Origin: Xanthostigma xanthostigma
Taxonomy: Eukaryota > Arthropoda > Insecta > Raphidioptera > Raphidiidae
Length of the DNA stretch: 64,000 nt
Assembly (NCBI GenBank): GCA_963575645.1
Contig: OY754467.1
Span: 37,445,108 to 37,509,107, forward strand
Direction of reading: 5' to 3'
The notes under the pieces are model-generated. The model was not told the DNA's origin, searched no databases, and saw only the letters and a list, made by a program, of their open reading frames with translations. A program made the translations under genes and the position numbers. This document shows, one piece after another, positions 6,642 to 53,560 of this stretch (the stretch's first letter is position 1; the number at the start of each line of letters is the position of its first letter).

Positions 6642-6973
6642 AAACTTTGATTAACGTCTGAATAGAACAAATAGAATAGAATAGAACAAATAAATAAAAT
6701 TATCGACCAATTTTTTTAGACTATATATTAACAAAAATTATAAAATTATAATTCAATAGATGATTATTGATTTTTTATTAATATTTCGTTAACAAAAAAA
6801 AATTCAAACTATATTTCTATTAGAAAATAAGTAGATACTAATTAATTTTTATATTTTTTAGATTATTTCTGAAGAAGATGCAAATCCGGCCCGAAACGTC
6901 ATCTATTGAATTATGATTTTCTAATTTTTGTTAATATATAGTCTGAAAAAATTTGGTCGATAATTTTATTTAT
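6642..6973. mobile_element. Small retroelement with 13-bp target duplication and hammerhead-like motif, copy 1
   Basis: Flanked by ttacttgtgatca (6,629-6,641) and ttacttgtggtca (6,974-6,986), 12 of 13 matching. The element begins aaactttgattaacgtctga and ends gataattttatttat. Its two ends are inverted copies of each other over about 60 bp. Next to the right arm is CTGAAGAAGATGC...GAAACGTC (6,869-6,900). Long, variable target duplications argue for reverse transcription at the target rather than a cut-and-paste transposon. Penelope-like elements or retrozymes are possible classes; no protein is present to decide. Confidence 0.65.
6869..6900 (+). ncRNA. Hammerhead-core-like motif
   Basis: CTGAAGA (fits CUGANGA) is followed by A, a decayed stem (GATGC/GGCCC with loop aaatcc) and GAAACGTC. 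In this copy the stem pairs poorly, so activity is unlikely. It belongs to the motif set at 12,021, 12,266, 26,961, 42,131 and 53,521. Confidence 0.35.
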
Positions 6974-6986
6974 TTACTTGTGGTCA

Positions 6987-8199
6987 TTTGAAAAATAATT
7001 TTCAAAAAATCCCAAATACGTTTCAAATCGTTACTTCTCAATATTCTTACATCAGATCGTTAAAAATAGGTGATAGCATAGTTATCGGATCATGTATTGA
7101 AAAAAAAGGAAAGAATAAGGTATCTCGTTTTTTATATTCGATATTCGCGTAATCAGTTTGTCAGCTGCAATGAACCGTCTACAATTTCCACAATTCACGT
7201 CGTCTCATCCACGTTGTCTTCTCTTATCTTTTGACCCTCAACGTATTTTTTTTTCTTTTGCGTTTCGCATTTATCTTATCGGTTGCGTAGTCAACCAGTC
7301 ATTCATACGAAAGCATTTTCAATGTCTGCTGTTGACTAAAAATTCTAAAAACACCGAAGGTTATTCTACAAACTAATTTTCCAAGACTAATATCCGATTT
7401 CGACGAAATTATTTATCAATTTTGATAGTAACATACAAAAAAAATTAAAATACTTGTCTGAAATAGTTTTTGTACACTCATGACTTTGAGTAAATAACTT
7501 ATCAGACGATGTTTGGATGTTTTTTTTTATCAAATATTTCATGAATTGTGACGCATTAATTATTAGTTAGAAAAATCGTACAGGAGGCCCCCATTTAAAT
7601 TTGAAATTCTTATTATCATCGGATCGACCTAGCGATATATTGTAAATATAATTAAAATCAGTCCAGTAATTTTGACGTAATGTCCGAACAAACATTGACG
7701 GGCATAAAAAAAAATACATATATATTTTATTTATATACCTACTAGCTTTTGACCCACTGCTTTGCTCGCATTACCTAATATCGATTTTGAAAAGATATAG
7801 GGCTTGAAAATAGCCGAGTGTGTAGAGATGATGTTTCCATGACTTCTCTATTACAAGCTTATTACAAGCTATTACAAAATTTAGTCGTGTGTACAATTGA
7901 AGAGCAAAAAAAAAACAATTTTTTTAACAACCTAACTTGCAAAATTTTGGCGTTTGTTGTGGTGGGTGTCCGGACATTGGATATTAAAATGTACTAGATT
8001 TTTTAAAAAGTACTAGATTATTGCTTCAACGTACTAGCGTACAGAAAATGACAAAAAAGTACTAGATCTAGTACAATTGTACTAGACTGGCAACGCTGGC
8101 TTCCAGTTCTCAAACCTTACCCAAGAGTCATTACCAATTATATTTTCAGTGTAATATTAAAAAATAATAAATTGATAAAAACATAAGTGCACACTCCGG
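6987..8199. other. Unassigned DNA with old retroposon traces
   Basis: No gene. Near 7,560-7,790 phrases such as atcggatcgacctagcg, aaatcagtccagtaatttt and ctagcttttgacccactgct resemble decayed LINE 3' tails. At 7,985-8,095 the word gtactagat is repeated several times and the stretch ends in ctggcaacgctgg, which may be one end of a hAT-like element, but I found no partner. Confidence 0.4.
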
Positions 8200-8202
8200 T
8201 AA

Positions 8203-8268
8203 GTGCAGGCCGGGATCGAACCGCGGATCTCCGAGTATGAGACAGACGCGATGACCGTTATTCCACAA
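8203..8268 (-). pseudogene. tRNA-like sequence (SINE head or tRNA pseudogene)
   Basis: Read on the minus strand it has a recognisable B box (GGTTCGATCCCGG), an A-box-like GGTCATCGCG region and a loop around CTCATA. The acceptor stem does not pair and the T stem has a mismatch, so it is not a working tRNA. Confidence 0.45.
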
Positions 8269-8674
8269 GATCAATTATTACAAATGGTGCTATTTTTACA
8301 GTACAGCGATTAGTCTTATTCATGTTAACAGAATAGTTTTATTGATTAACATATACCATTTTCAATGTGTTTAATGATTGAAACGTTTTATTAACTGTAA
8401 TAAAATAATAAAATTGTCTATAACAATTAAAAAACTAAACGCGAGTCAATGAGTTCCAATAGATTTCTATTCTGATAGTAAACGAAGCGAATAAAAAATA
8501 TATATTAAGTCGACTCGTCAAGAATTGCGACCTGTAGAGCTCGGACTTACAAACGTACGTACAGACCAACAGACAGCTCCTGTCATCAATCAAAAACTGG
8601 TTCCATTTTAGAGAACAGAATCTCCCCTTTTTAAAAATCTACAACTTGAATCGATTTTTTTGCGGTATTAAGTA

Positions 8675-8857
8675 CAGTATAACCCCTCTAATCCGTCACC
8701 TTTGATCACCTATAGTCGGAACGCAGATTACACAGAGAAAAATACAGATTTACAGTAAAATAGACAATCTCTGAACTCAAAAATTACTGTAACCACTGAA
8801 AACTGCACAGTACAGTTCGGCTCGAGGAGCCGAGGGCGGACGAGAGGGATTCTACTG
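8675..8857. mobile_element. pogo/Tigger-like MITE
   Basis: TA flanks the element at 8,673-8,674 and 8,858-8,859. The ends CAGTATAACCCCTCTAATCCG and, inverted, CAGTAGAATCCCTCTCGTCC share most positions and begin with CAG, as pogo/Tigger ends do. It is 183 bp with no coding capacity. Confidence 0.7.
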
Positions 8858-8859
8858 TA

Positions 8860-9854
8860 CTTGTATAAGTGAAACTCAGCTTTGACGCGCAAAACGATAA
8901 TAGAGCACGTCATGCCGAAATCGTGGTGTCTACAATATTAAGACTTGGTGCTGGCCTCAAATAAGCCTATCTGTTGCGGTGGCTTTAAAAAAAAAAACTT
9001 TAGCCGGATAAATAAAATTTGGATTTGAGTGTTGCGATTATCATCAAAATCGGTCTAGCTGTTATCAGGTGATGCTGCTGGTACAAACAGACAAAAATAA
9101 TTGTGGAAACACGTTTTCTTCACTAATCTGTCATACAAAATACCAAAAAAACGAGAAACAAGAAAATGATATTTCCTCTTTTATATAGGTATTACTACTG
9201 ACTACTGAGTCGCAGTCACAAAATGAAATGTCTAGACGGAACATATCATGAAATGTCCAGTTTTTTTTTAACATACGGTTTATTGGCCAGTGGCCTCTAC
9301 ATCTTCTGACATAATCAGACATGTCAATACGTTCGGAAGAAGAAATGCCCGCAGTTATAACAGATTTAAAAATTGAAAAAGGAATGTACGTGACTATATT
9401 TCAAAAATTTAAATTTAATCTTTACTAAAAAGTATTTTGGAATTAACTACCACAACCATTATTTCAAAATTAATAAAAATAAAATACGTAATTGGACTAA
9501 TTTAACATTAAAAACTTTTGATTACCGCTGTTGTGTAAGGTCCAGGTTTGAATAGTTAAAGGTCATGTATTTATATTATAATTCTATACTGTAAAAGAAT
9601 TAATTATCACTGAAGCATAAATCAAAATTAAAAAAACCCAGTTTTATTGTGGGCCTCATCCCCTGCGTTATCATGAGGAACGTACGTGATCTATTTTTGC
9701 AGGTTTTTTTTTAACGGGAAACATTCGAATAAAAATTTAAAACGATACTTGACTGCCTTCTGTACAATTTACTTATATACGACATAGATACTATATTATT
9801 TTTAAGCAGTATGTTTTAAATAAAAAAAGTTTTTAAATGTTTTATACACTATTG
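8860..9854. other. Unassigned AT-rich DNA
   Basis: A phrase tcatcaaaatcggtctagctg near 9,040 resembles a LINE 3' tail. Nothing else can be supported. Confidence 0.35.
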
Positions 9855-10020
9855 GATAACTAACAGTTAATTCCGGCGTTGCCCGTGCCCCCTTAATATA
9901 TAGCCTAAACAACTCCTAGAGTAACGTTCTATACAGCCGTGAAAAACAAACTGAAATCTGTTCAGCAGTTTTCAAGTTTACCGCGAACATATACAGACAG
10001 ACAAACACAAGCGAGAAAAG
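9855..10020 (+). mobile_element. LINE 3'-tail fragment
   Basis: The order gcgttgcccgtgccccctta, gaaatctgttcagcagtttt and cagacagacaaaca is the pattern of decayed insect LINE 3' ends (probably RTE or related). It has no coding sequence and no visible target duplication. Confidence 0.4.
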
Positions 10021-10043
10021 AACTATGTATAACTTTATTGTAA

Positions 10044-10448
10044 TCATATACTTTTATTCTATACTGAGCATAGGAATAAAATCGCATTCGAACCATTAGG
10101 TGCAAACATATACTTCTGACTTTTTTAAGCCGTAAGCACTGCCGTATCCAGGAGGGCAAAACAAGCACGGGGGATCCGGCTTAAGAAATTTCTAATTTTC
10201 CCCCTCCTGGGCCAAAATCGGGTACGCCCATGTTAACATCATAGAAAAAGACAGTTTTTGAAACAAAGATACTTTATTCAGATTGAATGCAAGTACATCA
10301 ACCAATCCTATCATCGGAGAAATCAAGGAATTGCATCGCAGAAAGAGACGCAGATATATTTTCAATACACTTGGTTGCCTTCACTCACCGCACATTGAGT
10401 AGATAGACAATGATTCATATAGTAATTTATTAAATATATGATTGTAAT
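10044..10448 (+). repeat. Dispersed repeat family C, copy 1
   Basis: About 400 bp shared with 25,995-26,402 (opposite strand) and, without the central part, with 28,164-28,472. Shared words include gcataggaataaaat, cctatcatcggagaaa and gacaatgattcatatag. The central part, from gtatccaggagggcaaaac to cccctcctgggcc (about 10,143-10,232), is inverted-repeat-like and is replaced by other sequence in copy 3, so it may be a nested insertion. Confidence 0.75.
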
Positions 10449-11955
10449 AGAGATATTGCAGAATTCTTACAAAACATATACGGCCAGCACCAAAATCAAA
10501 GACACTAGAGTATGAACTCAATAGCTCCTAAAATAAGAGGTCACTGGTGTTTCTGTACGTATCGAAACGGAGGTATACCTATACCGAAACCATGAAGAAT
10601 TCTTCAAAAATTGAAGTAATAGTTTAGCCCGGTTTAATTTAAGTAAACAAATAATGAACAATTAAAACGACAACTGGAAATTAGTAAAAAAAGGAAATTT
10701 AACGACGCAAGTGATAAAAAAAGAAACCGTATATGTAATATGTGCTATTTAGTGGGCAGATTATCGGTGACTTTTATGAGGGAGGCTCAGTTTTTTTTTT
10801 TTTAATTCTTTATATGCCTTAACATTAATTCGAGAACTTGGTACGTTATTATTTGATACCAAAAACTATATTTATAGTTCTCTATGTTCGGCTATACTTG
10901 GGTTAAGATAAAGTTAGTGTCAAAACCAACATTAACGAGAATAAGGCCGCTAGTTAATATAAATTAAGGGCTGTCTGTATTCCCCCTGAAACTTTAAATT
11001 AAATATTTGTGATTTTGTTTTCAAAAGATCCGCAATTCGATTAAGTGGAAATGATTTTTTTATTTTTGTCTGTTGCAGAAAAATGTCTCAATGTGTAATC
11101 AAATTTTAATTGTTATAAAGTTATTTATGCACCTGGTTTCACCAAGTTTCGTAACGATTCAATTACACGTCTAAACATTTGAGTTTTCAAACCACAAAAA
11201 ATAAAATTAGGTTTCTGAGAACTTTTACATAATTTATTACGAACTTGAGGTGTAAGTGACGCGAATTTTTACTTTCGAGCGACCATAATTGTGAAGATGT
11301 CTTGGAATGATAAAAAAGTCAAAATCGAGATTTCGCGAATGGTTGACATACCATTCAACAAATCAAAACCAAATTTTAAACTTAATTTTTAGGGCGTTCC
11401 TAAGATTTATTTTTTTTTTCCTATTTCCTCAAATAAGAGTTTACAGATGACCGAATCTTTGTAAAGTGGGATTTTCTGAAAAACGGCTCTAACGATTTAA
11501 TTATAAATTTCACAAACCAACGTCATTTGAATTCTAGAATTATTTAATTCAAAAAGAATAAAAAAATGAATACAATTTCGCGGTCGATGTCAGTGAGATG
11601 GGGTCGCGACAATTTTTTATTTTGGTAAACAGTTGAACACCTAATGCAACATAAAGCGTTTTTGTTTTTGTCATACTTGTCAAGAACTGTCAATATAAAA
11701 AGGGACCAGTCAATTGACACCTTAACGCCATCATTAATCCATTCGTCTAATAGCACCCACTACAAATAATTTTATTGGAACAGATGATAACAACTGATAA
11801 TTAACTACTCTATATGCATTGGAGAAGAGGCTATTGTCATAAAATTTTAATAACAAGACATTTAACCGAAAATTAAAATTGTTAGGGGGTAGATCCGGGA
11901 GCCTAATATTGCACAACGCAAAACGCAGAAAATCTCTTTAGGATATAAATGTATA
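10449..11955. other. Unassigned DNA
   Basis: No reading frame with a recognisable domain and no clear paired ends. Phrases like ggtttcaccaagtttcgtaac (about 11,130) resemble decayed retroposon tails. Confidence 0.35.
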
Positions 11956-12362
11956 CGATGAAGGAAGGTTTTGGTTGAGGATCATAAATAAATAAGCTTT
12001 ACAAATGTTACGCTAGTGGCCAACGTTTCGAAAAATTTATTTTCATCTTCAGGGCCTCAAGCTGGTCTAAAGGTGGTAAATTGTTAAAACAATATACATG
12101 ATCATATTATTATGAGTTAAAACATATTATAAACATCTTATTATAAAAACCATTAAAAAAATTATTAAATTTTGGTTTTTATAATAATATGTTTTAACTC
12201 ATAAGTAATAATATGATCATGTATATTGTTTTAACAATTTACCACTTTTTGACCAGCTTGAGGCCCTAAAGATGAAAATAAATTTTTCGAAACGTTGGCC
12301 ACTAGCGTAACATTGGTAAAGCTTGTTTATTTATGATCCTCAACCAAAACCTTCCTTCATCG
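11956..12362. repeat. Long fold-back with hammerhead-like motif in each arm
   Basis: Left arm 11,956 to about 12,146 and right arm about 12,172-12,362 are inverted copies with few differences, separated by about 25 bp. Each arm carries the GAAGAT-stem-GAAACGTTGGCC motif; the left keeps CTGAAGA, the right has CTAAAGA. It encodes no protein. Confidence 0.85.
12021..12052 (-). ncRNA. Hammerhead-core-like motif (left arm)
   Basis: On the minus strand: CTGAAGA, T, a perfect 5-bp stem GAAAA/TTTTC with loop TAAAT, then GAAACGTTG. It is bordered by GGCC on both sides, which can pair with itself. The inverted copy at 12,266-12,296 keeps the stem and GAAACG but has lost the CTGAAGA. Confidence 0.4.
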
Positions 12363-12884
12363 TAACATTCTATTGGATCAGCACTACTTTATGCTGAAGA
12401 TATAAATTAATATTACAAAGAAAATGCGGCTCCTATCAAACCCTACAAAAATAATATGTACATCCCTCGAATTCAATTGTGTCAAAGGCAAGTTATTCCT
12501 TTATTGTAAGTATTGCTTACATAGTAATATTATGAAAATATTATTTTACTATTAAACAGAAATTAATATTCATTTACAAAATGTAAGTATGTTAGCTTAA
12601 AAGACATATTATAAACGAAGATTAAATCAATTGAATGTACGGACACATAATACATCACCAAGACAATTCGCGCTTTGCTTTTATCGCATTCTGTTTACTA
12701 ATCGATCAGACTTAATGGTGTACACACTGCTGTACATGATGGCGAGATATCAATAATGGGGTCGTCCCACGTTCTTTTTACTATTCCAACCCACAAGTGG
12801 TCAAAATTCACATTTCAAAATTTTACAATATTTTTTCATTTTGAGGTCCCCGAATCCCAAAAACATATTTTTGGAAAACTTCTG
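12363..12884. other. Unassigned DNA
   Basis: Nothing supportable. The frame from about 12,756 runs into the repeat at 12,890 and is not convincing as a gene. Confidence 0.35.
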
Positions 12885-12889
12885 TGCGT

Positions 12890-19013: not shown

Positions 19014-19366
19014 AAAAACTTTTTAACAAAAAAATTAAACCGCCGAAAAACTGAAAAGCAAAAAATAATAAATCTTTTTATTTAACTAAGTAGTTGAACG
19101 TACGTGACAGTCTAGTATATCTAAGTAATTTTGAGTCGGCGTCAAACAATCAATGAACAAAGATCACTAAAAGAAATAATTAAATCAAATTAGAGAACTC
19201 TCGTGAACTCTCAGAGATTTCCGGCGAAGGATTGTTGACGCCGACTCAAAATTACTTAGATATACTAGACTGTCACGTACGTTCAACTACTTAGTTAAAT
19301 AAAAAGATTTATTATTTTTTGCTTTTCAGTTTTTCGGCGGTTTAATTTTTTTGTTAAAAAGTTTTT
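19014..19366. repeat. Near-perfect long palindrome
   Basis: Left arm 19,014-19,150 and right arm 19,230-19,366 are inverted copies. Read along their length I find only one difference (gtcaaacaatc against gtcaacaatc). The spacer is 79 bp. Such fidelity in otherwise decayed intergenic DNA implies recent formation or gene conversion between the arms. No coding capacity. Confidence 0.95.
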
Positions 19367-22934: not shown

Positions 22935-23480
22935 CTGGCGGCGCTTAAACATTTTAAATAGGTGTTTTACAGGATTAATTGGAGGTACCTCCTAACATGG
23001 GCTAGGAATGAAGGAGAGAGTGTTAATTAAATTATGAACCACATCCATGTTTATGATGTTTTAATTGTTTTTCAAATACTGCTGATAATAAACTGCGATA
23101 TACACAGTGCCACTAGTCACTATTGCCATAAGCCGTGTGTCGTGTATCATGCGTATGTGTATGTACGACATACGTACCGCCGAGTCAAAGCCATCAAAGG
23201 TGTTGACTGAACGAAATGGATTCAGTAAGCACTGCTAGTATAAGGCAGTGATAGATGCTTATTTGTACTAATGTGCTGACGGTAAGTGCAGCTCAAAGCT
23301 GATCTAAATAACACACCATAACTTGTGGGTTATGAGTTGCACTGTGTACAGCGGGGTATCTGAAGACGTTTCATGATGATAGCTTTACGGAGCGCAGAAC
23401 AGCGCCTGCAGAACACACACGAGCTTTGTGTTTTAGCGGTTGATTGTGTAACTATTACACTATTTCCTAATATTGGTTAA
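22935..23480 (-). mobile_element. hAT family F, copy 1 (partial)
   Basis: Matches, in the opposite orientation, 49,340-49,879 of the complete hAT at 48,873: shared cactggcggcgc end, gccataagccgtgtgtcgt, gagtcaaagccatcaaaggt, aatgtgctgacg, cagctcaaagc, cacacgag and gattgtgta...actattacactattt. It lacks the region that carries a nested MITE in the other copy, and its second end is not visible. Confidence 0.7.
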
Positions 23481-23986: not shown

Positions 23987-24840
23987 ATGACAGTTCGTAA
24001 ATGCTGCATTATTAATTGTAATAACTAATAATACATTAAAAAAAGTGATGTTAGCTTTTATTGTTTCTCAAAATATAAGCATAAGTTAATTCAAAGATAA
24101 AAATGGATTTCCATCGTGAGAAAGCAGAAGTAAGTATCATAACCTTAATTTTACATTGACAATAATGTTCCAAAAAAATTAATGTGAACACACTATGAAA
24201 ATATATTATTTAATATAAAATAAATATAAGAATAATGACATTTAATAATTTTTATGAAATTACAACTTGAATTTTGTTATAAAATTAATAAAATAAGACA
24301 TATTCTTTTATTTTTTAGTGGATATACGAACATCCAGTTGGAATCCTACATCACAAGATCTAATTTGCAGTGCACATTTCATTGGGAACAAAAAGGGAGA
24401 AGAAGAACTGGGTCCTAATTACGTACCTAGCAATTTTTTTTTACCTCAAAGGAAACCAATATTAAATGAGAATCAAGTTTTGACAAGACATCAACGTTTC
24501 ATTAAACGTAGGCTACAAAATATTTCATTAGTGGGTTCAAGTTCAAAAAATGATAAAGATTCAAGTCTGAATTAAAAAAGTGCTGCAAATACGGAAGATA
24601 TTAGTTCAGTGTATGAAAATAACTGACAGTGTACATGGCAATTTAATGATTGTTGATTCGAGTACCAAAAGCAGAAATGATGTAGAATGCCAAGCTGATA
24701 TTTTTGCTTATTGTAATACCTAGTGTTGAAAAAATACTGTTTTGTAATAAAATTATTCAAAAAGGCTCTAATACATGTGATGCTCAAACTCAAACTGAGA
24801 TTAATTGAAATAAATACCACAAAACAGTTTAGAAATCAGA
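23987..24840 (+). pseudogene. THAP-domain transposase, N-terminal part, broken
   Basis: An upstream piece at 23,987 starts MTVRKCCIINCNN and then hits two stops; further on it reads YCFSKYKHKLIQ, stop, KWISIV. After a likely intron (donor GTAAGT near 24,130, acceptor at 24,318), the next piece has SSWNPTSQDLICSAHF (24,336 on). Together they give the C2CH pattern of a THAP zinc finger: C-x2-4-C early, W in KW, then C-x2-H in CSAHF, followed by YVPSNFF. A DAQTQTEI phrase near 24,780 fits the linker of such proteins. The splice phases do not join in frame, and several stops are present, so it is a relic. Domain recognition is firm; family placement is less so. Confidence 0.7.
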
Positions 24841-26960: not shown

Positions 26961-27000
26961 TAGTCAACGTTTCGGCAGAAATTTTTGTCTTCTTCTTGAA
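26961..27000 (-). ncRNA. Hammerhead-core-like motif
   Basis: On the minus strand: CAAGAAGA, then 17 bases (AGACAAAAATTTCTGCC), then GAAACGTTGACTA. Spacing equals that of the copies at 6,869 and 42,131. Stem pairing is weak. The surrounding repeat has not been bounded. Confidence 0.3.
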
Positions 27001-27702: not shown

Positions 27703-28166
27703 CACAAAACTAGCTTGGAAAAACGTCTCGTGTGAAGCGAGCACACGAGGCTAGAAACGCTGCTAGATTTGCCTACTAGTTTTCTAGCGCTGGTTTTCTT
27801 GATTGCTGTTATGTGCTCGCTTCACACGAGACGTTTTTCCAAGCTAGTTTTGTGAACGCGCAGTGACAGTTCAAATATAAACACAGAGCAAAACGTGTCT
27901 TTTGTTTGACTCTGAGCAGAATGACGCCATGTTGGTTTGTGGACGTTTGTTCGAGTCGCCCACGTGACAAAATACTGCTTCCTGATTGGTTCTTGCTCAT
28001 ATCTGGCAGCCGGCCTAGCAAGGAAAATAGCCCCTGTTCTAATTTTAAAACCTATCTTGTGAGCTAGCAGGCCAGCCCGCAGTGACGTCATTTCCAGTTT
28101 CGTACCCAGCCTACCAGCTAGCATAACTCCTATAGCAGTGTTTCTAGCCTCGTTCGCAGCGGCCTA
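27703..28166. mobile_element. MITE family G, copy 1, with inverted duplication at its left end
   Basis: Homologous, inverted, to 48,925-49,337: shared gcgctagaaaactagtag, gtgaagcgagcac, cacgtgggcgact, gtgagctag and ggaaatgacgtcactgcggg words. The right end reads, inverted, ggccgctgcgaacgaggc. A 43-bp inverted repeat (27,703-27,745 and 27,812-27,854) joins it to the LINE fragment. Confidence 0.7.
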
Positions 28167-30279: not shown

Positions 30280-30607
30280 TCTTATTTCAGAATTATGTAT
30301 AACGTAAAAAATTAATGGTTTAATTAAAAATGTTCCAGTTGTAAATGAAATGAAATGAAATGAATTTCACCTCTAATCACCCGTTCTCTCTAACGTTATG
30401 AAAACTGTTAAATCAGTTAATTAATAATTACGTAATAAACAGATAATTAAATTTATAATTACTAAACTAAGATTAATTTAAGTATATTATTTAAATCATT
30501 TATATTATCTTCATAACAAAGTACAGTACAAAGAAGCTACTGTATGGTTAAAGAGCTCGATTTTATCACTGAGGACATTTAAATAATAGTCCAAGAGCTA
30601 TTGAACA
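30280..30607. other. Unassigned AT-rich DNA
   Basis: A four-fold aaatg tract near 30,343-30,360; nothing else. Confidence 0.35.
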
Positions 30608-31293
30608 TTTTTGGGTAGGTATTTAAGGCAGCGTGAAAATTTATGTAACACATCTTTTATAATGTCTGAACACAATATCGAAGACCTGGCTGAAAGGTAG
30701 TGGGACCGAGCCAGCTGTAAATTTTTAACTTTTCAAAATTTTATTTGCAAAAAAGTCCTTGAGGCATTTTAAAATTTTAATACCTTCAAATTTAGTAGAT
30801 ATTTAATAAAATAAATAATAACTAAGCCAGATCATTTAGTCGGGTCTAAATGTCTGCCAGGCGGTTACAAAACTGTCTATTTATACGTGAGAGCAAGTAA
30901 GACGCTACGGAGAGAGCAAAGGTATATGGGCTGAGTTGAAGTGTGATGCGGTGCGATTATACGCTCTCTCTCACACTTCCATCTACCCGTAGCGTCTTCC
31001 GCACTCACATACCTAAGTAACAGCCTTACATCCATTTCGATTTAAGACTCTACTAAATGATCTGGATTATTTATTTTTTATTTTATTAATTAAATAGGTA
31101 CTAAATTTGAAGATATTAAAATTTCAAAATGTCTCAAGGACTTTTTTGGCAAATAAAATTTTGCAAAGTTTAAAATTCACAGCTTGGCTAGGACCCACTA
31201 TTCTTCAGTCAGGTCTTCGATTTTGTGTTCAGACATTACAAAAAAAGTGTTACATTTTCACGCTGCACGCTGCGTCAAACACCTACCCAAAAA
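30608..31293. repeat. Large fold-back element
   Basis: Left arm 30,608-30,845 and right arm about 31,045-31,293 are inverted copies (tttttgggtaggt ends, then cagcgtgaaaa, atgtctgaacacaa, aggacttttttg). The centre holds a second inverted pair, gtgagagcaagtaagacgct and agcgtcttccgcactcac. The arms are more diverged than those at 19,014. Confidence 0.85.
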
Positions 31294-31595
31294 TAATAAT
31301 AATATAACCTTTATTTATAAAATTCCAAAGAATGTAAATTGCGTCATATAAAAAAAATTAAAAATTTAAAAATCTTCTACCCAAAAATATTTGATAGCTC
31401 TCCTACTATAACCCTGAACAATCAATTTACAGTCTTCAAAACTAATTTTTACAACAATTATTAACGATCTTTGTTATATTAAAACTAAATTGAATAGAGT
31501 AAGTAAAAGAAGGATGCCTCATTTTCTTATGAAAATAAAAGCGCCTCTTGCAATAAACAATTGTTTACACGAAAGCGATTACAATCAACTACTTC
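31294..31595. other. Unassigned DNA
   Basis: Nothing supportable. Confidence 0.3.
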
Positions 31596-40459: not shown

Positions 40460-43251
40460 TTAATCTCTGTACGTGAAGAAGCCGTCGATTAAGAATACGA
40501 CACCATTTATGATGGCCAAAGCTCCTTTGGTCATGGACCAGTTCTTGGTCTCCTTGCTGGAGAATATCGAATCATCGTAAGCTTGGATCGTAAAGATTCC
40601 GCTTGCAATGAAGAGAGCTGAGCCTACCAAACTGTAGAAGATATCGATGCGCTTGCCAATCGGTGTTCCCATCAAATGACCTACAAATCACAGATATTAT
40701 TTAGCTCACTTATATTAATCGGATCCATATACTTAACACTTCTATATTGCTAGTAGGGGTCTGGAAAAGGATGACGACCCAACGGTGCAGACATACGTCT
40801 GTCTCCGTCATTTAGACATCAATGTTTTGCGCATGTCCGAGAATGGAGCATGCACTTGCCCACTGCAGTCACAACGCTTGCGCATAACGGATTGAGTATA
40901 AATAAGTGAGATAGAAGTATGCAGTTACTGTTTCTCTTGGTAGGCAACGCTTATATGGGAACTAGCAATATAGGAGTATTAAGTATATATAATTATATCA
41001 ATTTTAGGTCAGGGCGTTGAGAGACACATCGGGTCCTGATAAATTCTGCAGTTTTTCTGAAATATAGTGTAAAAAAACTACCCCATCCTGAGGGTCTTGA
41101 AATTATAAAAATTACTGACTTAACAATCGCAAATGACATCTTAATTTTGTAAGGATTTGGTTCTAAAATTGTTATTTTTGAATTAGCTTTGTAAAATAAT
41201 TGGTATTTAAAAAATAATCTATTTTTTTTACTTTTTTCTGGAAAAATTGTCCAAATTGTCTAATACTCTATCCCATGAACCAATATAACAATGAAACTGC
41301 GTGATCGCTTGAAACTCAATACAGCAAAAAGCAATGTAGGGACCATAAGATATCAGCTGCGCGTTAACAAAACATGTGCTTAAGTCTTCTTGTGGCAACT
41401 ATGTATGTTGGTGGAAAAGACTAACTTATTTTAAGTTTTAACAATAACAAAAATTAATTAGAACATTGTGGCGCCACTGTTTCTAACGTGCATTTCTAAA
41501 CTACAAAGATCATTAAATATTAATAAAAGATAATAATTAATTATTTTTATCTATAAATTTACCTGCAAAACTTCCGAGTAAAATAATCAGGTATCCGCAA
41601 AAAGTTCCTGTGACAAGGAGGAAGTGTTCAGAATTTTCGGGCGTGAGTCGACTTAATGTCTTGTAATGAATGGCCACGCACGCCACTGTTAATGCCTGGA
41701 AATACAAACAAAATGAATGCGACAAAATGTTTATTGCTTAAAAATAAACTGACCAAGGGAAGTCACTATAATGACTATTAGATTTTCGCCTTTTCTGTCG
41801 AGTATTATGTTTGAAAAAGTCGTTGCAATCATGTAATACACCAGCTTTTCGGGCCGGTTTCGTCCGGGTAAGTTTTGGTTTGGGCGCGAAATTATCTAAA
41901 CTCATCTGTTATTTGATGATGACAAAGATTATATGTCAGATAATATCATAATATATTATTATATACATTGATAAATCGCACATGGGTTGCCTAGCTAAAT
42001 CGCGTACCGATGCTGTTAAATTAAATAAATTCTAATCTTTGATTAACGTCTGATTAGAACTCTTCAATAAATAAAATTATCAACCAATTTTTCAGTCAAT
42101 ATATTAACAAAAAATATAAAATTAATACATTAACGTTTCAATCCGGATTTGGATCTTCTTCAGAATTGATCTAAAAAATATAAAAATAATTAATATTTAA
42201 AATTAATTTTATATTTTTTGTTAATATATTGTCTGAAAAATTGGTCGATAATTTTATTTATTAAATAGATTCTAATTAACTTTCTTGGATCAATTTCCCC
42301 GATTTGTTAATCATAAAAATCGAGCCTAAGATGAGAGAATATTATGACACAAATAAAATAAAACAAATAAACTCAAAGTACACAGAACACAACTATTTAC
42401 AATATATGTTTATGCGGATGATCTATATTTATGTACAGAAAAATTTATGTATTTCGAATTCCTTGTGTCATATTATCTCATTTTAGGCTCGATTTTTATG
42501 ATTAACAAATCGGGGAAATTGATCCAAAAAAGTCAATTAAAATTTACTTAATTTAACAACATCGGTACGCGATTTAGCTTGGCAACCCATGTGCGATTTA
42601 TCATTGTTTAATATATTATCTAATTCTAACATATTATAATCTTTGTCATCAGCAAATAACAGATGAGGGTATATATTTCTAATACCGGATCTTAGACTAA
42701 CAGTATTATTTAGTATATTATCAATGAGATATGAGATCCACTAGAAAATTCTACTGAAAATTTTAAAAAAATGTACAGTTTGTGAAGCTTCAAGGCTATA
42801 CCCATGCTGGGTAAAAAAAAACCCAACACATTTTCAGAAAACATGGGTTGACAATAACTTCAATTACTTCATTAAGGTAGTATATTAGACATATAAATCT
42901 CAAAAAAATAATAACGATCAATAGAAGTGTATTTTTTTATTAGTTGAACGTCTGTGTAAAATCAGACAAAATGATTGTAATTGGTTGTAAACTTTCTTGA
43001 AAAACGTTTTTTTTAAATATTAATGTCATCGCAGTAGGTATTTCACCATGTGGATGTCCCTTTTTCTAACACGTTGACTACGCCATTGGCCAAATCAAAT
43101 CATATAGATGTACATAGTACCTACTAAGTAATTAACTCGAAGCATGCAACTGTAATATACATATATCAAGTAAGTACACCCATTGGTTGAGTGATGCGTT
43201 TAGACTTACCAATTCAATGAATTTCACAATAGATAATCTTGACACCGCCAT
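40460..43251 (-). CDS. Small four-transmembrane protein (MARVEL-like), three exons
   Basis: Exons on the minus strand are 43,251-43,210, 41,695-41,563 and 40,680-40,460; donors GTAAGT and GTAAAT and acceptors TTCCAG and TTGTAG join them in frame, giving 131 residues. Hydrophobic segments lie at about 8-24, 38-59, 70-92 and 109-127, with short polar tails. The landmarks are VTGTFCGYLIILLGSFAGHL, GTPIGKRIDIFYSLVGSALF and GVVFLIDGFF. Similar 4-TM proteins with TPxxxRxDxFxxLxGxxLFxxxG are found across insects and resemble MARVEL-domain proteins, some of which act in epithelial junctions or membrane apposition. The function of this one is unknown. Intron 1 (41,696-43,209) carries the large fold-back and nested retroelement; intron 2 (40,681-41,562) is ordinary. 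I am confident of the gene model, less so of the family name. Confidence 0.88.
42037..42263. mobile_element. Small retroelement with 13-bp target duplication and hammerhead-like motif, copy 2
   Basis: Flanked by aataaattctaat (42,024-42,036) and aatagattctaat (42,264-42,276), 12 of 13 matching. The right arm of the surrounding fold-back preserves the uninterrupted site. The element begins ctttgattaacgtctgatta and ends taattttatttatta; its two ends are inverted copies over about 60 bp. The hammerhead-like motif lies next to the left arm on the minus strand, whereas in copy 1 (6,642-6,973) it lies next to the right arm on the plus strand, so the elements differ by inversion of the unique part. 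No coding capacity. Confidence 0.8.
42131..42162 (-). ncRNA. Hammerhead-core-like motif
   Basis: On the minus strand: CTGAAGA, A, a 5-bp stem GATCC/GGATT (one G-T pair) with loop aaatcc, then GAAACGTTA. This is the best-preserved member with a CTGANGA core. Confidence 0.45.
42676..43200. other. Remainder of intron 1
   Basis: AT-rich, no repeat recognised apart from gggtaaaaaaaaaccc at about 42,811. Confidence 0.35.
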
Positions 43252-44424: not shown

Positions 44425-44426
44425 TA

Positions 44427-45920
44427 TTTTGAAAATAAAAAAAATCAGCCGCTATTTTGTTTTATGGATCTGTCAGAAATAAACTAGTTAGGCATGCTTT
44501 AATTAATTTTTACATGACGTGGAACATATTCTGTAGGTAACCATGGCAATGAATAGCAAACATCATATTGAATTCTAGCCATTACCCGCGTCACCTCACG
44601 CGATATCAGAAATTTTATTTTCTTTATTACAATCAAATGACAACATTTTTTAAGTTGGAATGGTCCCATCGCCCAATTGGCTGGAATTTTTTTTTTATTT
44701 CTCCCATTAAAAAACATACTTAATTCCAAATTTTCTACCTCTCAGGCTCTCAGCACATCTCAATGTTTTTTAATTCCATATTTTTTTATATTCGTGACAT
44801 AAATCATGAGCGTCTCATTCATAACTGATCGTTTGTCTACCGGGTCCGCTATTATTCTACAAAAAAAGTCCGATGCAGCATAATTTGTCCTTGTTTAACA
44901 GAAAATCTATAAATCCGGGCCGCTAGTATTATAATAAAATTAACGGTGCATCGGATAAAAATATAAATATAATTTATGAAACATTGCTAAAAAAGTTGGT
45001 TTCCAATTTCTACTGATATTTATGATCGCTTTTGTTACACGGTTTTTTGTACACTCTGTATATCTTTTCACCATATTATATGCATTGAAAAATAGCAAAA
45101 AACCACTCCCATAAAATACACATATTGATAATTTTTGGGTTGAGTTGTTGATTTATGAATCAAATATCCTTACATATTTACTTTAAAATAAAGTGATTAA
45201 GTACTGTAGCCCAAAAACAAAACCAACATATTTATAGAATTTTATGTACGTCTATGCCTTTTCTTCTGTTGTTTTTATTCCGAACTATAAAAGTAAACAC
45301 AATGTTTTTTTTCTACAACGGAAATGCACCTGGTGCATACAAATTATTAATAAAAATATTTACATAGCCATGGCAAGTAAATAAATGAAAATACCTACAA
45401 TAATTTTTATATGAGCCAAAAGGTAACAGTTGATAAATAATACAATAGAAAAATTATAAAATGGCATCAAATGTAATTTTTGATCTCTACTAACGCGTAT
45501 ATTTCCAGAGCTGTGATTGTTTTTGTTTTCACGTAAAAATAGGCTCACCTGTGTTAACACACAAAAAAAGATCACACTAAATTTAAAAATAGAGCACAAA
45601 ATCAAAACAAATGCGCTAATTTCACTGTCTCGGATTCACACGCCGCGTTTCGAAAACCAACTGAAAATGTCCAAATCAAGGGTAGAGAGGCCTGCACAGT
45701 GGTCGAACCTTGAACAAAATAATACACACATAGACATGTATGTACTTTATATATGAGCAATAGAGTATATAATGTATATTCTATATACCATTTAGGTGTA
45801 CGCATAATAGGGTTGAGCAAACCGCTTCAAGGAACTTGTTTTTTTATAGTTTAACGTGCTCAGCAACTTAATATGGGTGGTATAATATAAGGGTGTTTTT
45901 GAAGTGAATACTTCTTTAAA
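44427..45920. other. Unassigned AT-rich DNA
   Basis: At about 44,925 cgggccgctagt looks like a retroposon end. Nothing else supportable; the several short frames have no domain. Confidence 0.35.
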
Positions 45921-46362
45921 AACGGGGTTAAGAGTATTCGTCCCAGCAAACACCCCCCGCACCATTCATCTCAAATCTTTCCCCTCGCCTAAAAACGGTT
46001 TGCGCTCTCCCGACACTATTTTTAAATCTAGAGGGTTCTGGTAAACGACAAATGAAAGACAAAGAATTAGACTACAGATCCTTCAGGCGAATTTTTTGAA
46101 AAAAAGTTTCGTCTACGTGTGAAATATTACGTAACTTATTATTTTTTTTAAAAGGTTGTAAGTTTTTTCAGAATTTTTTTTTCAAAAAATTCGCCTGAAG
46201 GATCTGTAGTCTGATTCTTTGTCTTTCATTTGGCGTGTACCAGAACCCTCTAGTTTTAAAAATAGCGTCGGGAGAGCGCGAACCGTTTTTAGGCGAGGGG
46301 AAAAGATTTGAGATGTAGGGTGCAGGGGGTATTTGCAGGGACGAATACTCTTAAACACGTTT
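45921..46362. repeat. Long fold-back element, family K
   Basis: The arms, 45,921-46,098 and 46,184-46,362, are inverted copies (aagagtattcgtccc; ctaaaaacggtttgcgctct; ctagagggttctgg; acagatccttcaggcgaatt). The spacer is about 85 bp. A diverged single arm lies at 49,965-50,110. Confidence 0.9.
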
Positions 46363-46506: not shown

Positions 46507-46674
46507 AACAATTCGTATTTTTATTTTTAAGTGTACTTACCTATTATATATAAAATTTTCGACTAATTTATCAGAATAATACTTGAGCTAAAAAAACAAT
46601 ATTTGCAGTAAACCTGCCAAAATTTTGTTGTCTGCTTGTGTTTTCTTATATTTATTATTTGCAAATAACCTGCG

Positions 46675-46935
46675 AAAAAATTAAAAATGTGTTACGAGAA
46701 CGCATTACAGAAGTGAAACTTCTAGTTGCAAATCATACGATTGCACTTGGACAAGTAGAAATATGTAATGTGTTACGAGATAGTTTCACCTTCAGATTAA
46801 CTTGGACAGACGAAATATCTGAACGTGAAACTATCTCGAACACATTTTTTCCACTTGTCCAAATGCAATCGTATGATTTGCAACTAAGTTTCACTTCTGT
46901 AATGCGTTCTCGTAACACATTTTTAATTTTTTTTA
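46675..46935. repeat. Long palindrome
   Basis: The arms, 46,675-46,799 and 46,811-46,935, are inverted copies (aaaatgtgttacgagaacgc; ttgcaaatcatacgattgca) with a handful of differences and almost no spacer. Frames on opposite strands encode near-identical peptides because of the symmetry and are not genes. Confidence 0.9.
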
Positions 46936-48864: not shown

Positions 48865-48872
48865 CGTATCTT

Positions 48873-49879
48873 CAGTGGCGGTTCCTCTATGAGCGCTGCA
48901 GAGCTGCAGAACAACCAAAATCTTAAGGCCGCTGCACACGATGGCAGGCTGGGTACGAAGCTGGAAATGACGTCACTGCGGGCTCGCCCACTAGCTCACA
49001 AGATAGGTTTTAAAATTAGAACAGGGGCTATTTTTCTTGCTAGGTATGAGCAAGAATCAACCAAGAAGCAGTATCTTGTCACGTGGGCGACTTGAACAAA
49101 CGCCCACAAACAAACACTATGCCATAGTGTGTGTTCTGTTCAGAGACAATAAACATGCACTTTTGTTACCATTCTATCACTGCGCGCGAACCGAATTTAC
49201 TTGCAGAGCAAATTTGTAAAGTCCCGTGTGAAGCGAGCACATAATAGCAATTAAGAAAAATGCAGCGCTAGAAAACTAGTAGTGAAATCTAGCAAGGAAC
49301 CTAGCGGCAAATCCAGCCTCGTGTGCAGCGGACTTTAGGTAGTTCATACTTTTAAAATGAATTTAACCAATATAATGTCTGGAAATAGTGTAATAGTTAG
49401 GTACACAATCAACGCTAAGCGGCTAAAGTTTAAAGCCACAGGCAGACCACAAACCTCGTGTGTTCTGTGTGGTAAATGAAACGTCATCATCAGATACCCC
49501 CGGTATACACTGTGCAACTCTTGACTCACAAGTTTAATAGCGTGATCGGCTTTGAGCTGCATTTACGTCAGCACATTAGTTTACAAATAACTACTGTTAT
49601 ATGCGAAAAATTCTCACTGAATCTATTTCATTCAGTCAATACCTTTGACGGCTTTGACTCGACGGTACGACACACGGCTTATGGCAGTAGTGACTAGTGT
49701 TACAGTGTATATTGTAGTTGGATGTCAACAGTCTTTGAAAAACAGTTAATAATTACAACATCATGAACACGGATGTGATTCATAATTTAATTACTCCCCT
49801 CTCATTGGCTCGTGTGAGGAGATACATCCGGTTGACCCTGCGCAGAACACCCATTTAAAATATTCATGCGCCGCCACTG
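48873..49879. mobile_element. hAT family F, complete copy
   Basis: The ends CAGTGGCGGTTCC and, inverted, CAGTGGCGGCGC match. The flanks cgtatctt (48,865-48,872) and cgtatcct (49,880-49,887) form an 8-bp duplication with one change. It includes a nested MITE at 48,925-49,337. A partial relative without that MITE is at 22,935-23,480. Confidence 0.85.
48925..49337. mobile_element. MITE family G, copy 2, nested in the hAT
   Basis: The ends taaggccgctgcacacga and, inverted, taaagtccgctgcacacga match. The interior is homologous to 27,745-28,166. It is absent from the corresponding place in the partial hAT at 22,935-23,480. Confidence 0.75.
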
Positions 49880-49887
49880 CGTATCCT

Positions 49888-50790
49888 CAATAATTTGACT
49901 TGAAATTAGGTAAACTATTATTACAATCTAATACTGTCCAAATTAGATAGTACAGAATTTTTAAGAGCATTGAATATGCATACAAATTACTCCCTGCAAT
50001 CTTCATCTAGACTCCTTTCCAGCGCCTAAAAACGGTCACAGCTCATAATATATAGAACCAAGAATCACGCACTTCCTACAGGCGAAAAATAGAGGAAAAA
50101 ATCCTTAAAAAACCTACAACTTTAAAAAAATATACAAATTACGTTTTCTTTCCCAAAACTGTTTAAAAAAAATACGCACCTCTTTTTTAAGTTAAGATAT
50201 TATCATTGCTGTTTAAATTTAGCTAAAAATAAAAGGCAGCTGTTTAAAGCAAGATGCCACAAGAATTTAAATGATTTTCCTTAAATCGGTGAATAAATTA
50301 ATTTAAGTCACGAGTCCCTGCGACCGCTTCGTTTTCCATTCTACTAATATGCACCTGCAGTCTGAACGATAATCCATTGACGGAACCTTCATAATTAGAA
50401 GCACGGCAGTGCACTAAGCCAAGTTCTCGCAGCAAAGCAACATTGGCTTGTGTTTCCATTTACACGAATAGACTCAAAGTATCCCCGAGACGGTCAATTG
50501 CGATTGTCAATATTACTATTGATGGCAATTTCTCAACACAGTTCAGTAATTGACTGAGGCGTGCGCTAATGATACACATTTAATTGAAACTTCAATCGCC
50601 CATCATTTCCTACAATCACGTAAACATTGATAATCGCAAGTTATCGTTTCGGGGGCCTTTAAAGCCTATTTACTATCCTCATTAGCTTCTCATTGATCCA
50701 ATACATAGCCTTGGCATAAATGTCTGAACTCTGGACGTCGACCGGGATATTTTAGGATATGAGTAGAAAAAAGGGCGAAATGAAAAAGTC
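49888..50790. other. Unassigned DNA with a half copy of fold-back family K
   Basis: 49,965-50,110 has ttcatctagactcctttcca, gcgcctaaaaacggtcac and cctacaggcgaaaaat in the order of the 45,921 arm. The second arm is missing. The remainder has no feature. Confidence 0.45.
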
Positions 50791-52286
50791 CAGTGGCGTA
50801 GTATGGATTAGGGATGTTACGGAGGTGGTTTTATCGGAACCGAAGTCGGAGTCGGAACCGGAATCGGAACCGGAGTCGGAGATGGTGGCAGAAGATTATT
50901 ATTATTATTAATCGATGACAGAAAGCGTGCAAAGTGCAGAGCCCTCGTAAGGCCTCACGCCGCCCGCGTGCGGGTTCATAATTGACGCCCTTTATTGGGG
51001 ATAAACTCACTAGACGATATCTCAAATTGAAAAACGTTAAAAATCCTAAATAACTAATACTGTAAGTGCAATTAATAGAAACTTTATTTCTTTTAAATTT
51101 AAATAAACTGTAAAAAAAATATTTAAACATTGTTATGTAAAATAATTCAAACGAAATACAATCATTGAAACATAGAGTGATAGAGCTAAATTTTATTCTG
51201 AAATATATTCAATTAAAATGAAACACATTAAACAGTGAATTTTAAAAATTCACTCGTACAGAGTGAATTTCAAAAATTCTCTCTTCAAGTTAAAAAAATC
51301 ACTCCGCGGAGTAAACTATTCTCTACAAAAACAGTTTACTCCGTGCGATTTTTCACGGCGTTCTTCTCCTGTCTTACTTATGAATGAGAGAAAAATTTAG
51401 TTTCACCGCTGAGCTCAGAGAATTCATTAAGTCAAAATAATCATTAGTTTATCAATTAGGAAAAATGAATACCAGTGCAATTAATAAAAACATAAATACC
51501 ATTACGACTGAATGTGAATCCCCTGGAATTAACTTGCAATTTTTTCCGTACTACACTCACATGAGGGAAAGAATATATTATCAATTATACCATTCAGGTG
51601 CACAAGTCTTACGTAAAAAAGTATTTGTTGATTGAAAAATACTTTACTTCACTCGCACTCTTGCAGGAATCGACAGGAAAAATCAAGATATAAACATACG
51701 CGGGAGTCTCCCGATAGGGGCGCCCTGTCTACGCGCTGATGTGAATTAACTATCGAATCGAAAATTGCGCGCGAAATATTTCGAATTCGAATTTCATTAA
51801 AAAATAAATAACTACTCGTAAGAGTTTTCACGCAGGCTTGAGTATGTAAATAAAATTGATATAATATCAGTTATATATTTTTTCTATACAGTACAAAAAA
51901 CATAACACAACCAGGCCATTTGCCGCCCCTTGAATGTGCCGCCCGCGTGCATCGCACGCATCGCACTATAGGGCGCGAGGGCCCTGCCAAAGTGCATGTG
52001 GAAACAGCACATGCACAAACCGGTTCATACACGTTGACCGCAGCCGCATGCTTCGACCTCTGATTAAAAACCCCCGATTTAAAAGTGTCGGAACTGAAAT
52101 CGGAACCGGAGGTGTAAGATCAATCGGAAGTTCCGACATATCGGAGTCGGAGTCGAAGCTCCGTAACATCCCTAGACTATGGACTAATCTAAACGTGGCC
52201 CGTGGGCGAAGTCGCATCGGCGAGGCCCTTTTCTTTCAGTAGGTATACCTATTCCCAAGACCCGCCTACGCCTAGCTACCCCACTG
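50791..52286. mobile_element. Outer hAT element
   Basis: The ends CAGTGGCGTAGTATGG and, inverted, CAGTGGGGTAGCTAGG match. Identical flanks aaaaagtc occur at 50,783-50,790 and 52,287-52,294. Without the inner element it is only about 120 bp, so it was a short MITE before being interrupted. Confidence 0.85.
50808..52175. mobile_element. Inner hAT-like element
   Basis: The ends TTAGGGATGTTACGGAG and, inverted, CTAGGGATGTTACGGAG match. The flanks agtatgga (50,800-50,807) and actatgga (52,176-52,183) match at 7 of 8. Removing the element and one flank gives a sequence colinear with 43,559-43,600. The ends carry GGAACCGGA/GTCGGA-type short repeats; the interior has short palindromes (gtgaattttaaaaattcac) and no transposase. 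Confidence 0.8.
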
Positions 52287-52377
52287 AAAAAGTCAATATT
52301 ATGATTGCTAATCTGACATTAATATTCTAATATTTTTGTTTATAGCACTTACCTAAATCACAAAACCTTGGTAAAAA

Positions 52378-52582
52378 ATTGGTTGTCTGTAAAGTCGGTT
52401 TACGGACGATAGTTTTACGTGATAACGTATTCCGCTCGAATATCATATTTAATAATACATTACTGCGCTCTCGCTTGCACGCACAGGGTCAGGCGGAACG
52501 TCACGGCGGGCGGAACGTTACACTTTTTCGTGCGTGCAGTTGGTGTTTCATCAATTTATAAGACGTTATCACGTCAAAAACA
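52378..52582 (-). repeat. Dispersed repeat family H, copy 2
   Basis: Opposite orientation to 35,054 and following; shares gtttacggacgatagtttta, gtgataacgt, acactttttcgtgc and gacgttatcacgtcaaaa. Its ends fold back on each other. Confidence 0.65.
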
Positions 52583-53520
52583 ATAACGTCGAACACAGAA
52601 AAAAACGATCTTCAAGTAATCTTATATTTATTAGGTATAGTTTTCATACATGCAGAGGTAGTTTAAACTTTAATGCCATAATCAGACTCCCTGTCATGTT
52701 ACTATACATTAGATTGTACTCACATAGAAACAAATGCATGATCTACACAGAAAAAAGTCACTTTTCAAGCTAAATTTTGATCAAAAAGCCTAGAAAATGT
52801 CGTTTCAAAAAATGAGCCAAGTCATCTTCTATTAGATTTTTCGATCAACAAAAGAGTTTAGGATTAGTTGGAACTTGATTTTTAGATTTCCATTCTTTGG
52901 TGACCTGGTAGAACGGAACTTGGCACACTTGTTCACATTTTGTTCTTGGTAGGATATTACATAAGTGTCTAGCATCGTGTTTCCCGTTTCAATAAGCGCG
53001 TCGCGTCTATAATTTTAATTTACGATTAAATACGTAATTAAATGATATCAATAGTCATTTTTATCAACATTCCTCAGTGGACAATCATCGGTCCAGCTCG
53101 AGGTCATAACAAAATAAATTAATAATTAGTACAAGAATATTGTTTGGCAACCAGTAAGCGAGATTATAAGTTTAATGATGATGTCATAGCCGTGATGAGG
53201 TTGAAGCGTTTTCGCCATCCATATTGTATATTAATATTAACTGCTATATAGCTATGAGATCATGGAGTTATTTTCTGCGTTGGCTAATCGTTCCCATGGG
53301 CGGCGGAAACAAACAGGCCACTTCGTTACTGACCTGAATTATAAGGTCTAAGCTGCAATTACCTGCGTAGATGTTACACCAAGTAGGTAGATACAGATTA
53401 AAATGGATTCGAAATATGCACAACAGTCGTATACAGTTGGAAGATTAAAGGATGAATTCTGGTGGCATAAGATTAATGAACTCTTCAAATACTGAAGGTT
53501 TTTTTTATTGCATTTTAGTG
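52583..53520. other. Unassigned DNA
   Basis: Nothing supportable. Confidence 0.35.
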
Positions 53521-53560
53521 TCTGACGTTTCGGCAAACTTTATGCCATCTTCGGAGAATC
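53521..53560 (-). ncRNA. Hammerhead-core-like motif
   Basis: On the minus strand: TCCGAAGA, T, stem GGCA/TGCC with loop TAAAGTT, then GAAACGTCAGA. CT of the core is replaced by CC, so a true hammerhead would be inactive. A run of ttgttaaag-like repeats follows at 53,590-53,640. Confidence 0.4.

Follow-up and report, generated by a model that had tools for sequence, protein, structure and literature searches.

The window, a stretch of 64,000 nucleotides (64 kb) on contig OY754467.1 of Xanthostigma xanthostigma, contains six sites, labelled A, B, B', C, D and E (Table 1), in which a left block resembling CUGANGA is joined through a varying middle to GAAACGTY. The initial annotation had located the motif correctly within a few bases but assigned it to five unrelated repeats; comparison of the repeats within the window gave four independent families, as A and D are homologous (83% over 143 bp) and B and B' are arms of one palindrome.

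Table 1. Hammerhead-like sites and the fold-back elements around them (positions in the window)
Feature	Position	Strand	Description
Site A	6869-6900	+	Core letters intact (CUGAAGA ... GAAACGUC); stem II broken; stem I poor, 5/10 pairs
Site B	12022-12052	-	Most complete copy, CUGAAGA-U-GAAAAUAAAUUUUUC-GAAACGUU; stem I GCUUGAGGCC / GGCCACUAGC, 8/10 pairs; cut predicted after position 12022, minus strand
Site B'	12266-12296	+	Mirror of B on the opposite arm of the palindrome; G5 to A damages the core (CUAAAGA); stems like those of B
Site C	26966-26997	-	Core damaged (AAGAAGA); stem II GACA/TGCC with one A.C mismatch; stem I 6/10
Site D	42132-42163	-	Core intact, CUGAAGA-A-GAUCCAAAUCCGGAUU-GAAACGUU; G.U closes stem II; stem I 7/10
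Site E	53524-53554	-	CCGAAGA-U-GGCA..UGCC-GAAACGUC (U4 to C); stem I 7/10
Fold-back element with A	6688-6975		No match between inverted arm and motif arm before 6899
Fold-back element with B and B'	11948-12369		One 422-bp palindrome; both sites read outward
Fold-back element with D	42053-42276		Same family as the element with A

The core CUGANGA ... GAAA is exact at A, B and D, with one substitution at B' and E and two at C. The two sides of the motif, described earlier as kept, differ in this respect, since GAAACGTY occurs in all six sites, whereas a complete CTGAAGA forms the left block in only half of them, the other three having damaged versions (CTAAAGA, AAGAAGA and CCGAAGA). GAAACGTY reproduces the type I order of a hammerhead ribozyme, with GAAAC joined to GUH and no stem III loop, and GUY is present at the expected cut site in every case. 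An intact core and an intact stem II are found together only in B and D. The remark that some copies are decayed was borne out by the damaged cores of C, E and B' and by the lack of good stems in A and C.

Four of the six sites lie inside three long palindromes, in a window that holds 12 self-palindromes of more than 80 bp, and the palindrome-bounded elements are short (about 220-420 bp) with no long ORF. This setting, together with the palindromic nature of ACGT, would suit a DNA feature, e.g., a site bound by protein or a conserved terminus in fold-back DNA transposons, the hairpin being incidental. Such an explanation is nonetheless very unlikely, as repeat and palindrome searches in the window found no inverted arms for families C and E, and the pairing described below falls in the exact hammerhead register, above that of slid registers and permuted partners. 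Neither C nor E has a second copy that could be found within the window, and repeat searches around the sites found no tandem array containing one. In the element with A the inverted arm starts matching 2 nt before the predicted cut and in that with D the arm ends 5 nt after it; an ending of fold-back arms at the cut is suggestive, but it concerns a single family and B has no such ending.

Further occurrences of the right side were set aside. GAAACGTY stands without the left block at 8380 and 15956, and at 24493 it is preceded by a left block with one mismatch (CTAATGA) and a stem of 3 bp, while GAAACGTC at 23365 and 49478 belongs to another repeat pair in which the left block is missing.

Pairing and covariation of stems I and II

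The combination GAAGA-N13..18-GAAACGTY has eight overlapping starts at five sites in the window, whereas 300 dinucleotide-preserving shuffles average 0.04 and never exceed two. GAAACGTY alone is only mildly enriched (11 vs 5.56 expected, a count of 11 being reached in 4 of 100 shuffles). A fixed geometry, defined by one extra base, GAAANNTH and at least three of the first four pairs of stem I, recovered four sites (B, B', D and E, from three families), while 300 shuffles average 0.13 and give two at most. A looser hammerhead descriptor, allowing 0-2 extra bases and any loop, separated the window only weakly from 150 shuffles, with five sites scoring at least 9 (mean 1.05, maximum 4) and a best score of 13 versus 12.

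Stem I, which the initial annotation did not include, begins directly before C3 and directly after position 17, i.e., in exact register. At five sites, 33 of the 50 pairs possible over 10 positions are formed, where the best slid register gives 26 and only one of the 120 permutations of partners, namely the true one, reaches 33; random places in the window attain the observed pairing at a fraction of 3e-4, and stem lengths of 3, 4, 6 and 8 positions gave random fractions of 0.0003 to 0.0016. With the four families, 28 of 40 pairs are formed vs 15.6 at random places (random fraction 5e-5). The register of site C was fixed by its length, which equals that of A and D.

Stem II, lying between A9 and G12 with one extra base (U or A) after A9, is paired in 76% of cells with five rows and in 85% with the four families. 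Its pairing, reported earlier for three variants of the middle, was reproduced in B, D and E, was weak in C and was broken in A. Stems I and II together are paired in 75% of cells in the four families vs 54% after shuffling, a value reached by none of 500 shuffles. The covariation claimed before was likewise recovered over the 15 pairs of both stems, scoring 0.520 vs 0.270 shuffled with five rows and 0.733 vs 0.337 with the four independent families, in each case above all 500 shuffles, although the pairing and covariation statistics rest on only these four families. The register of stem I, the invariant GUY and this covariation support the proposal of a selected RNA structure common to several families and related to hammerheads. 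Of the cleavage site and flanking stems sought for such a structure, GUY and stem I are in place, whereas a stem III of ordinary length is absent and only a loopless ACGU occurs.

The small number of independent families and the weak separation by the looser descriptor leave some room for chance resemblance in AT-rich repeats, which is the least credible of the explanations considered, being contradicted by the shuffle, slide and permutation controls as well as by the match to the Poseidon hammerhead described below.

Predicted folds agree with the two stems at some sites. The minimum-energy fold of B consists of stem I and stem II (z -1.93), both stems are also present in the minimum-energy folds of B' and E, and the centroid fold of E contains them too. 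When A, C and D are folded as monomers, stem I is missing (in D, from the minimum-energy fold). In the plain folds of B, B' and E the extra U is paired with G12, a base the ribozyme needs free, and in dimer folding with a plain energy model the double hammerhead was not the lowest-energy structure for any of the six sites.

Probable relation to the hammerheads of Penelope-like elements

The window sites thus show the core, the geometry and stems I and II with covariation, and their architecture is that of a published cleaving hammerhead, which was described from the Penelope-like element Poseidon_Ac (PAc) of the lizard-borne Anolis carolinensis set (PMC11167929). The Poseidon ribozyme comprises CUGAGGA, an extra U, a 6-bp stem II, GAAACGUC and an inner stem I CCU/AGG, so that it shares with the window sites CUGANGA, the single extra U, stem II, the loopless GAAACGUC and a 3-bp inner stem I. 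Differences are found in stem II, which has four to five pairs in the window instead of six, and in the cores, three of which are damaged in the window. In addition, the extra U of Poseidon is part of an AUG that opens the ORF of the element, with C3 and G8 upstream of it (PMC11167929), whereas the window has an AUG there only at B, B' and E, from which a stop is reached, as read from the sequence, after 12, 12 and 2 codons, respectively.

Reviews, which refer to Cervera and de la Pena (2014) and Lunse et al. (2017), attribute to Penelope-like elements a minimal type I hammerhead (small variant) that is devoid of helix III and may work as a dimer. The type I order, the reduction of helix III to nothing, the dimer-suited palindrome and the dispersal as non-coding copies are shared by the window sites, while the tandem copies mentioned in these reviews have no counterpart, the only close pair in the window being inverted. 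As the absence of helix III is typical of this minimal class, the loopless ACGU excludes a canonical monomeric hammerhead but not a minimal one.

The six sites are very probably minimal type I hammerhead ribozymes, or decayed remains of them, of the kind carried by Penelope-like elements, residing in short non-autonomous or degraded insertions. Among 10 chosen ORFs scanned with Pfam, none showed a reverse transcriptase or GIY-YIG domain that would mark a Penelope-like gene near the sites and place them in its pseudo-LTR, so that the link itself is put forward as a presumed descent. In the proposed ribozyme, the letters preceding CUGANGA would pair with those following GUY as stem I, and the varying middle would fold into stem II, with a single extra base (U or A) between it and the core. 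All that is left of stem III would be the loopless, self-complementary ACGU. An active molecule should consequently need either two copies pairing via ACGU or a protein, and cleavage would occur after the Y of GUY. Action as dimers, a role in trimming the transcripts of the elements and any present activity of the sites are inferred.

For Poseidon, C3 or G8 mutants are reported to lose cleavage and the double mutant to regain part of it, and cleavage to depend on the element's own protein (PMC11167929). In the same study, insertion in vitro was unaffected by ribozyme mutations and no RNA-seq reads ended at the cut site, so that a role of the ribozyme in mobility is unproven even there.

Hammerheads of the retrozyme type, which belong to non-autonomous circular-RNA retroelements, have to be weighed against those of Penelope-like elements, as animal retrozymes likewise carry type I hammerheads (PMC7229834) and the elements in the window are short and free of long ORFs. 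This origin is improbable, given that in most invertebrate retrozymes the hammerhead is arranged in tandem repeats and has loop contacts and a stable helix III (PMC7229834), in contrast to the loopless helix III and the lack of site-bearing tandem arrays in the window; the argument from helix III is not absolute, as amphibian retrozymes are without a clear helix III. With the Penelope-type reading, the window holds a few, mostly damaged copies of a known and ordinary kind of self-cutting RNA, and a hairpin that looks conserved across several families of repeats would be explained as the remains of known self-cleaving RNAs.

The extra base and the Rfam models

The extra base before stem II, already pointed out in the initial annotation, is not new, as it is present in the printed Poseidon hammerhead (PMC11167929) and frequent in viral-contig hammerheads, many of which carry it, mostly as U and next as A. 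In the literature searched, insect or extra-base hammerheads are named in no title or abstract opening. The viral-contig examples (L121-L126 and L151-L269) resemble the window sites in having CUGANGA, one extra base, stem II and GAAAC, but they belong to type III and possess a complete stem III, and the likeness as observed is one of architecture. The search of viral contigs for GAAGATG..CGAAACGTY returned mostly chance-level matches; among the 123 matches listed, two had a stem of five pairs, none had four and the rest had three or fewer.

It is tentatively suggested that a single additional base (U, more rarely A) separating A9 from stem II might define a broad natural class of hammerheads, arisen or kept in phage type III ribozymes as well as in the Penelope-type ribozymes of animals, which current family models would largely fail to detect; the base would then belong to the core as a selected element and would not be noise. 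As it is shared by viral-contig and Penelope-type hammerheads, its effect on folding and cleavage is directly testable.

The comparison with the Rfam hammerhead models proposed at the outset gave no match at any threshold tried, either for the window or for two sites alone. This silence is not diagnostic and does not exclude hammerheads, because at gathering thresholds Rfam also missed all 36 phage control sites, comprising 18 of 18 with the extra base and 18 of 18 canonical ones; the sole hammerhead match in the control loci lay elsewhere in its contig and not at the tested site. The microRNA-like Rfam matches inspected in the window, at 46.0-46.2 kb and 12.0-12.3 kb, coincide with palindromes.

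The paired blocks and their families

The initial annotation had described a motif, GAAGA-N-stem-GAAACGTY, recurring in five unrelated repeats, and its two blocks were indeed found 16-17 bases apart at five places in the window (sites A to E). The right block GAAACGTY alone was mildly enriched in the window (11 against 5.56 expected, with 11 or more in 4 of 100 shuffles), and the block pair gave 8 overlapping starts at 5 sites, where 300 dinucleotide-preserving shuffles averaged 0.04 and never exceeded 2. The joint occurrence of GAAGA and GAAACGTY in the window is not due to chance. The repeats proved less independent than claimed, since Blast of the window against itself grouped A with D in a single family (83% over 143 bp) and revealed B and B' as the two arms of a single 422-bp palindrome, leaving four independent families instead of five. 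Both the core and stem II are kept at B and D, stem II is lost at A, and core substitutions are present at B' (G5 to A), E (U4 to C) and C (C3 and U4 both to A).

Coordinates of the motif sites, fold-backs and other features in the window
Feature	Positions	Strand	State of the blocks
Site A motif	6869-6900	+	both present
Site B motif	12022-12052	-	both present
Site B' motif	12266-12296	+	left block damaged
Site C motif	26966-26997	-	both present
Site D motif	42132-42163	-	both present
Site E motif	53524-53554	-	both present
Fold-back bearing site A	6688-6975		
Fold-back bearing site D	42053-42276		
Self-palindromic fold-back	1929-2063		
Self-palindromic fold-back	4309-4463		
Self-palindromic fold-back	19014-19366		
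Self-palindromic fold-back	27703-27854		
Self-palindromic fold-back	30607-31294		
Self-palindromic fold-back	42260-42552		
Self-palindromic fold-back	45920-46362		
Self-palindromic fold-back	46675-46932		
Self-palindromic fold-back	57310-57501		
Tandem array	2681-3861		
IFT140 homologue exons	57814-61979	+	

Hammerhead architecture and covariation

Each site can be read in the order of a type I hammerhead, namely the 3' strand of stem I, the core CUGANGA, one additional base that is either A or U, then stem II, GAAAC directly joined to GUY, the predicted cut and the 5' strand of stem I. Stem I was absent from the initial description and thus provides a fresh test of the hammerhead model, in which the ten bases preceding the core were compared with the ten following GUY. 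Pairs numbered 5 at A, 8 at B, 6 at C, 7 at D and 7 at E (33/50), versus at most 26 with the register slid by 1 to 4; among the 120 partner permutations 33 pairs were reached by the true pairing alone, and random window places matched this value in a fraction of 3e-4. Taking 3, 4, 6 or 8 stem positions gave random fractions of 0.0003 to 0.0016, and omission of the poor copy A left 28/40 pairs versus 15.6 at random (fraction 5e-5). A strict descriptor with fixed geometry recovered four sites from three families (B, B', D and E), where 300 shuffles averaged 0.13 and yielded no more than 2. A looser descriptor, which allowed 0-2 extra bases and a loop of any kind, separated the window from 150 shuffles only weakly: 5 sites scored at least 9, where the shuffles averaged 1.05 and reached at most 4, and the top score was 13 versus 12.

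Covariation was scored in the pairing register of the hammerhead model, taken without fitting, on a small sample of four or five sequences. Across stems I and II of the five rows, 69.3% of cells were paired versus 52.4 +/- 4.0 in shuffles (0/500 as high), both sides had changed in 11 of 15 pairs (6/500) and the covariation score was 0.520 versus 0.270 (0/500; best slid register 0.240); further pair types were unexceptional in number (108/500). Because A and D are related, the analysis was rerun on B, C, D and E, giving 75.0% paired versus 54.0 +/- 5.1 (0/500), a score of 0.733 versus 0.337 (0/500; best slid register 0.289), 10 pairs changed on both sides (15/500) and 14 further types (26/500). 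The covariation originally proposed thus exceeds all 500 shuffles in score, with five rows and with four independent families alike.

Minimum-energy folds contained stems I and II at B (z -1.93), B' (z -2.11) and E (z -0.77), and these folds also paired the extra U with G12, a base that the ribozyme needs unpaired. Stem I was absent from the minimum-energy folds of A (z 0.75), C (z 1.15) and D (z 0.08), and a double hammerhead was favoured at 0/6 sites in a plain two-molecule fold.

The extra base and the silence of Rfam

The base between the core and stem II is U at B, B' and E and A at A, C and D. Viral contigs were scanned with three patterns that had an equal number of fixed bases and placed one, no or two extra bases ahead of a GGC/GCC stem II; these returned at least 120, at least 120 and 11 stretches, respectively. 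New loci analysed numbered 119, 118 and 11, three rows on loci of earlier scans being excluded from their set, and duplicates and sites close to locus ends were removed before counting. A stem I hairpin, a UH cleavage site and stem III were found together at 42/86 distinct sites with one extra base and 31/117 with none, both among the matches listed, and at 4/9 with two, versus 2.5% of random positions. The 42 sites are type III hammerheads whose single extra base stands between CUGAUGA and stem II. The single extra base was T in 68, A in 13, C in 4 and G in 1 of the 86 sites among the matches listed. In six loci of an earlier viral-contig scan, type III stems were read by eye in five, and one locus gave a sub-threshold alignment to Rfam Hammerhead_3 in which the extra base is inserted relative to the model. 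So natural hammerheads frequently have one extra base, more often U than A, and the window sites agree with this; two extra bases also occur. In the available text of PMC3088659, the core is described with insertions of other kinds and stem II with U-U mismatches at its base, and a single-base insertion before stem II was not found in that text; the insertion was also unnamed in the portions of the literature searched, which is weak evidence.

Among these contigs, canonical and extra-base forms co-occur in L155 and L167, three canonical matches lie in L309, and two extra-base matches each in L218 and L229. Type II hammerhead matches share a contig with a type III-like site at L349:6181-6249 (+), above threshold, and L125:6159-6220 (+), below it, and a Pistol ribozyme match (L211:66-129, -) shares its locus with an extra-base hammerhead.

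The Rfam search proposed initially gave no hammerhead match in the window, nor at two sites scanned alone. For calibration, the 18 shortest loci passing at a score of at least 9 were taken for each form, from 41 one-extra-base and 29 canonical sites. At Rfam 15 gathering thresholds the hammerhead was missed in 18/18 extra-base phage loci and at 18/18 canonical phage sites, the lone Rfam hammerhead among the canonical loci lying at a different place in its contig. As all 36 phage sites were missed, the silence of Rfam is not evidence against hammerheads.

Likeness to Penelope-like elements

The ribozyme of Poseidon, a Penelope-like element of Anolis carolinensis, comprises, in the element's template RNA as printed in the available part of PMC11167929, CUGAGGA, an extra U, six base pairs of stem II and GAAACGUC, with CCU upstream and AGG downstream. 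It thus shares with the window sites the extra base and the loopless GAAACGUC, and its extra U is the U of an AUG start codon. The initial observation and its reading as a hammerhead relative with an extra base were largely right; this base is common to the window sites, the published Poseidon ribozyme and many viral-contig hammerheads. The same part of that paper reports that C3 or G8 mutants abolish cleavage and the double mutant partly restores it, that cleavage depends on the element's own protein, that ribozyme mutants have no effect on in vitro insertion and that no RNA-seq reads end at the ribozyme cut site.

Minimal type I hammerheads without helix III are carried by Penelope-like elements and may work as dimers, according to the portions available of the reviews PMC7761336, PMC6155905 and PMC6466107. 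The ACGU palindrome of GAAACGUY fits the dimer idea, as it allows base pairing between two such strands. Neither a reverse transcriptase nor a GIY-YIG nuclease was found among ten chosen window ORFs, so that the ribozyme architecture by itself would provide the link to Penelope-like elements. The window sites are very probably remains of minimal hammerheads like those of Penelope-like elements. Four of the ten ORFs matched Pfam families above the cut-off, namely three pieces of IFT140, whose homologue is a split gene in the window, and one HIT-domain protein. The split IFT140 gene marks the window as eukaryotic.

In the fold-back bearing site A the inverted arm matches the motif arm only from 2 nt before the predicted cut, and in that bearing site D only from 5 nt after it; from these boundaries, the arms look as though the end of a cleaved RNA had served as their template. 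Besides the three motif-bearing fold-backs, the window holds nine further self-palindromic ones of 135-688 bp, and offset self-matches reveal a tandem array with a period of ~156 bp.
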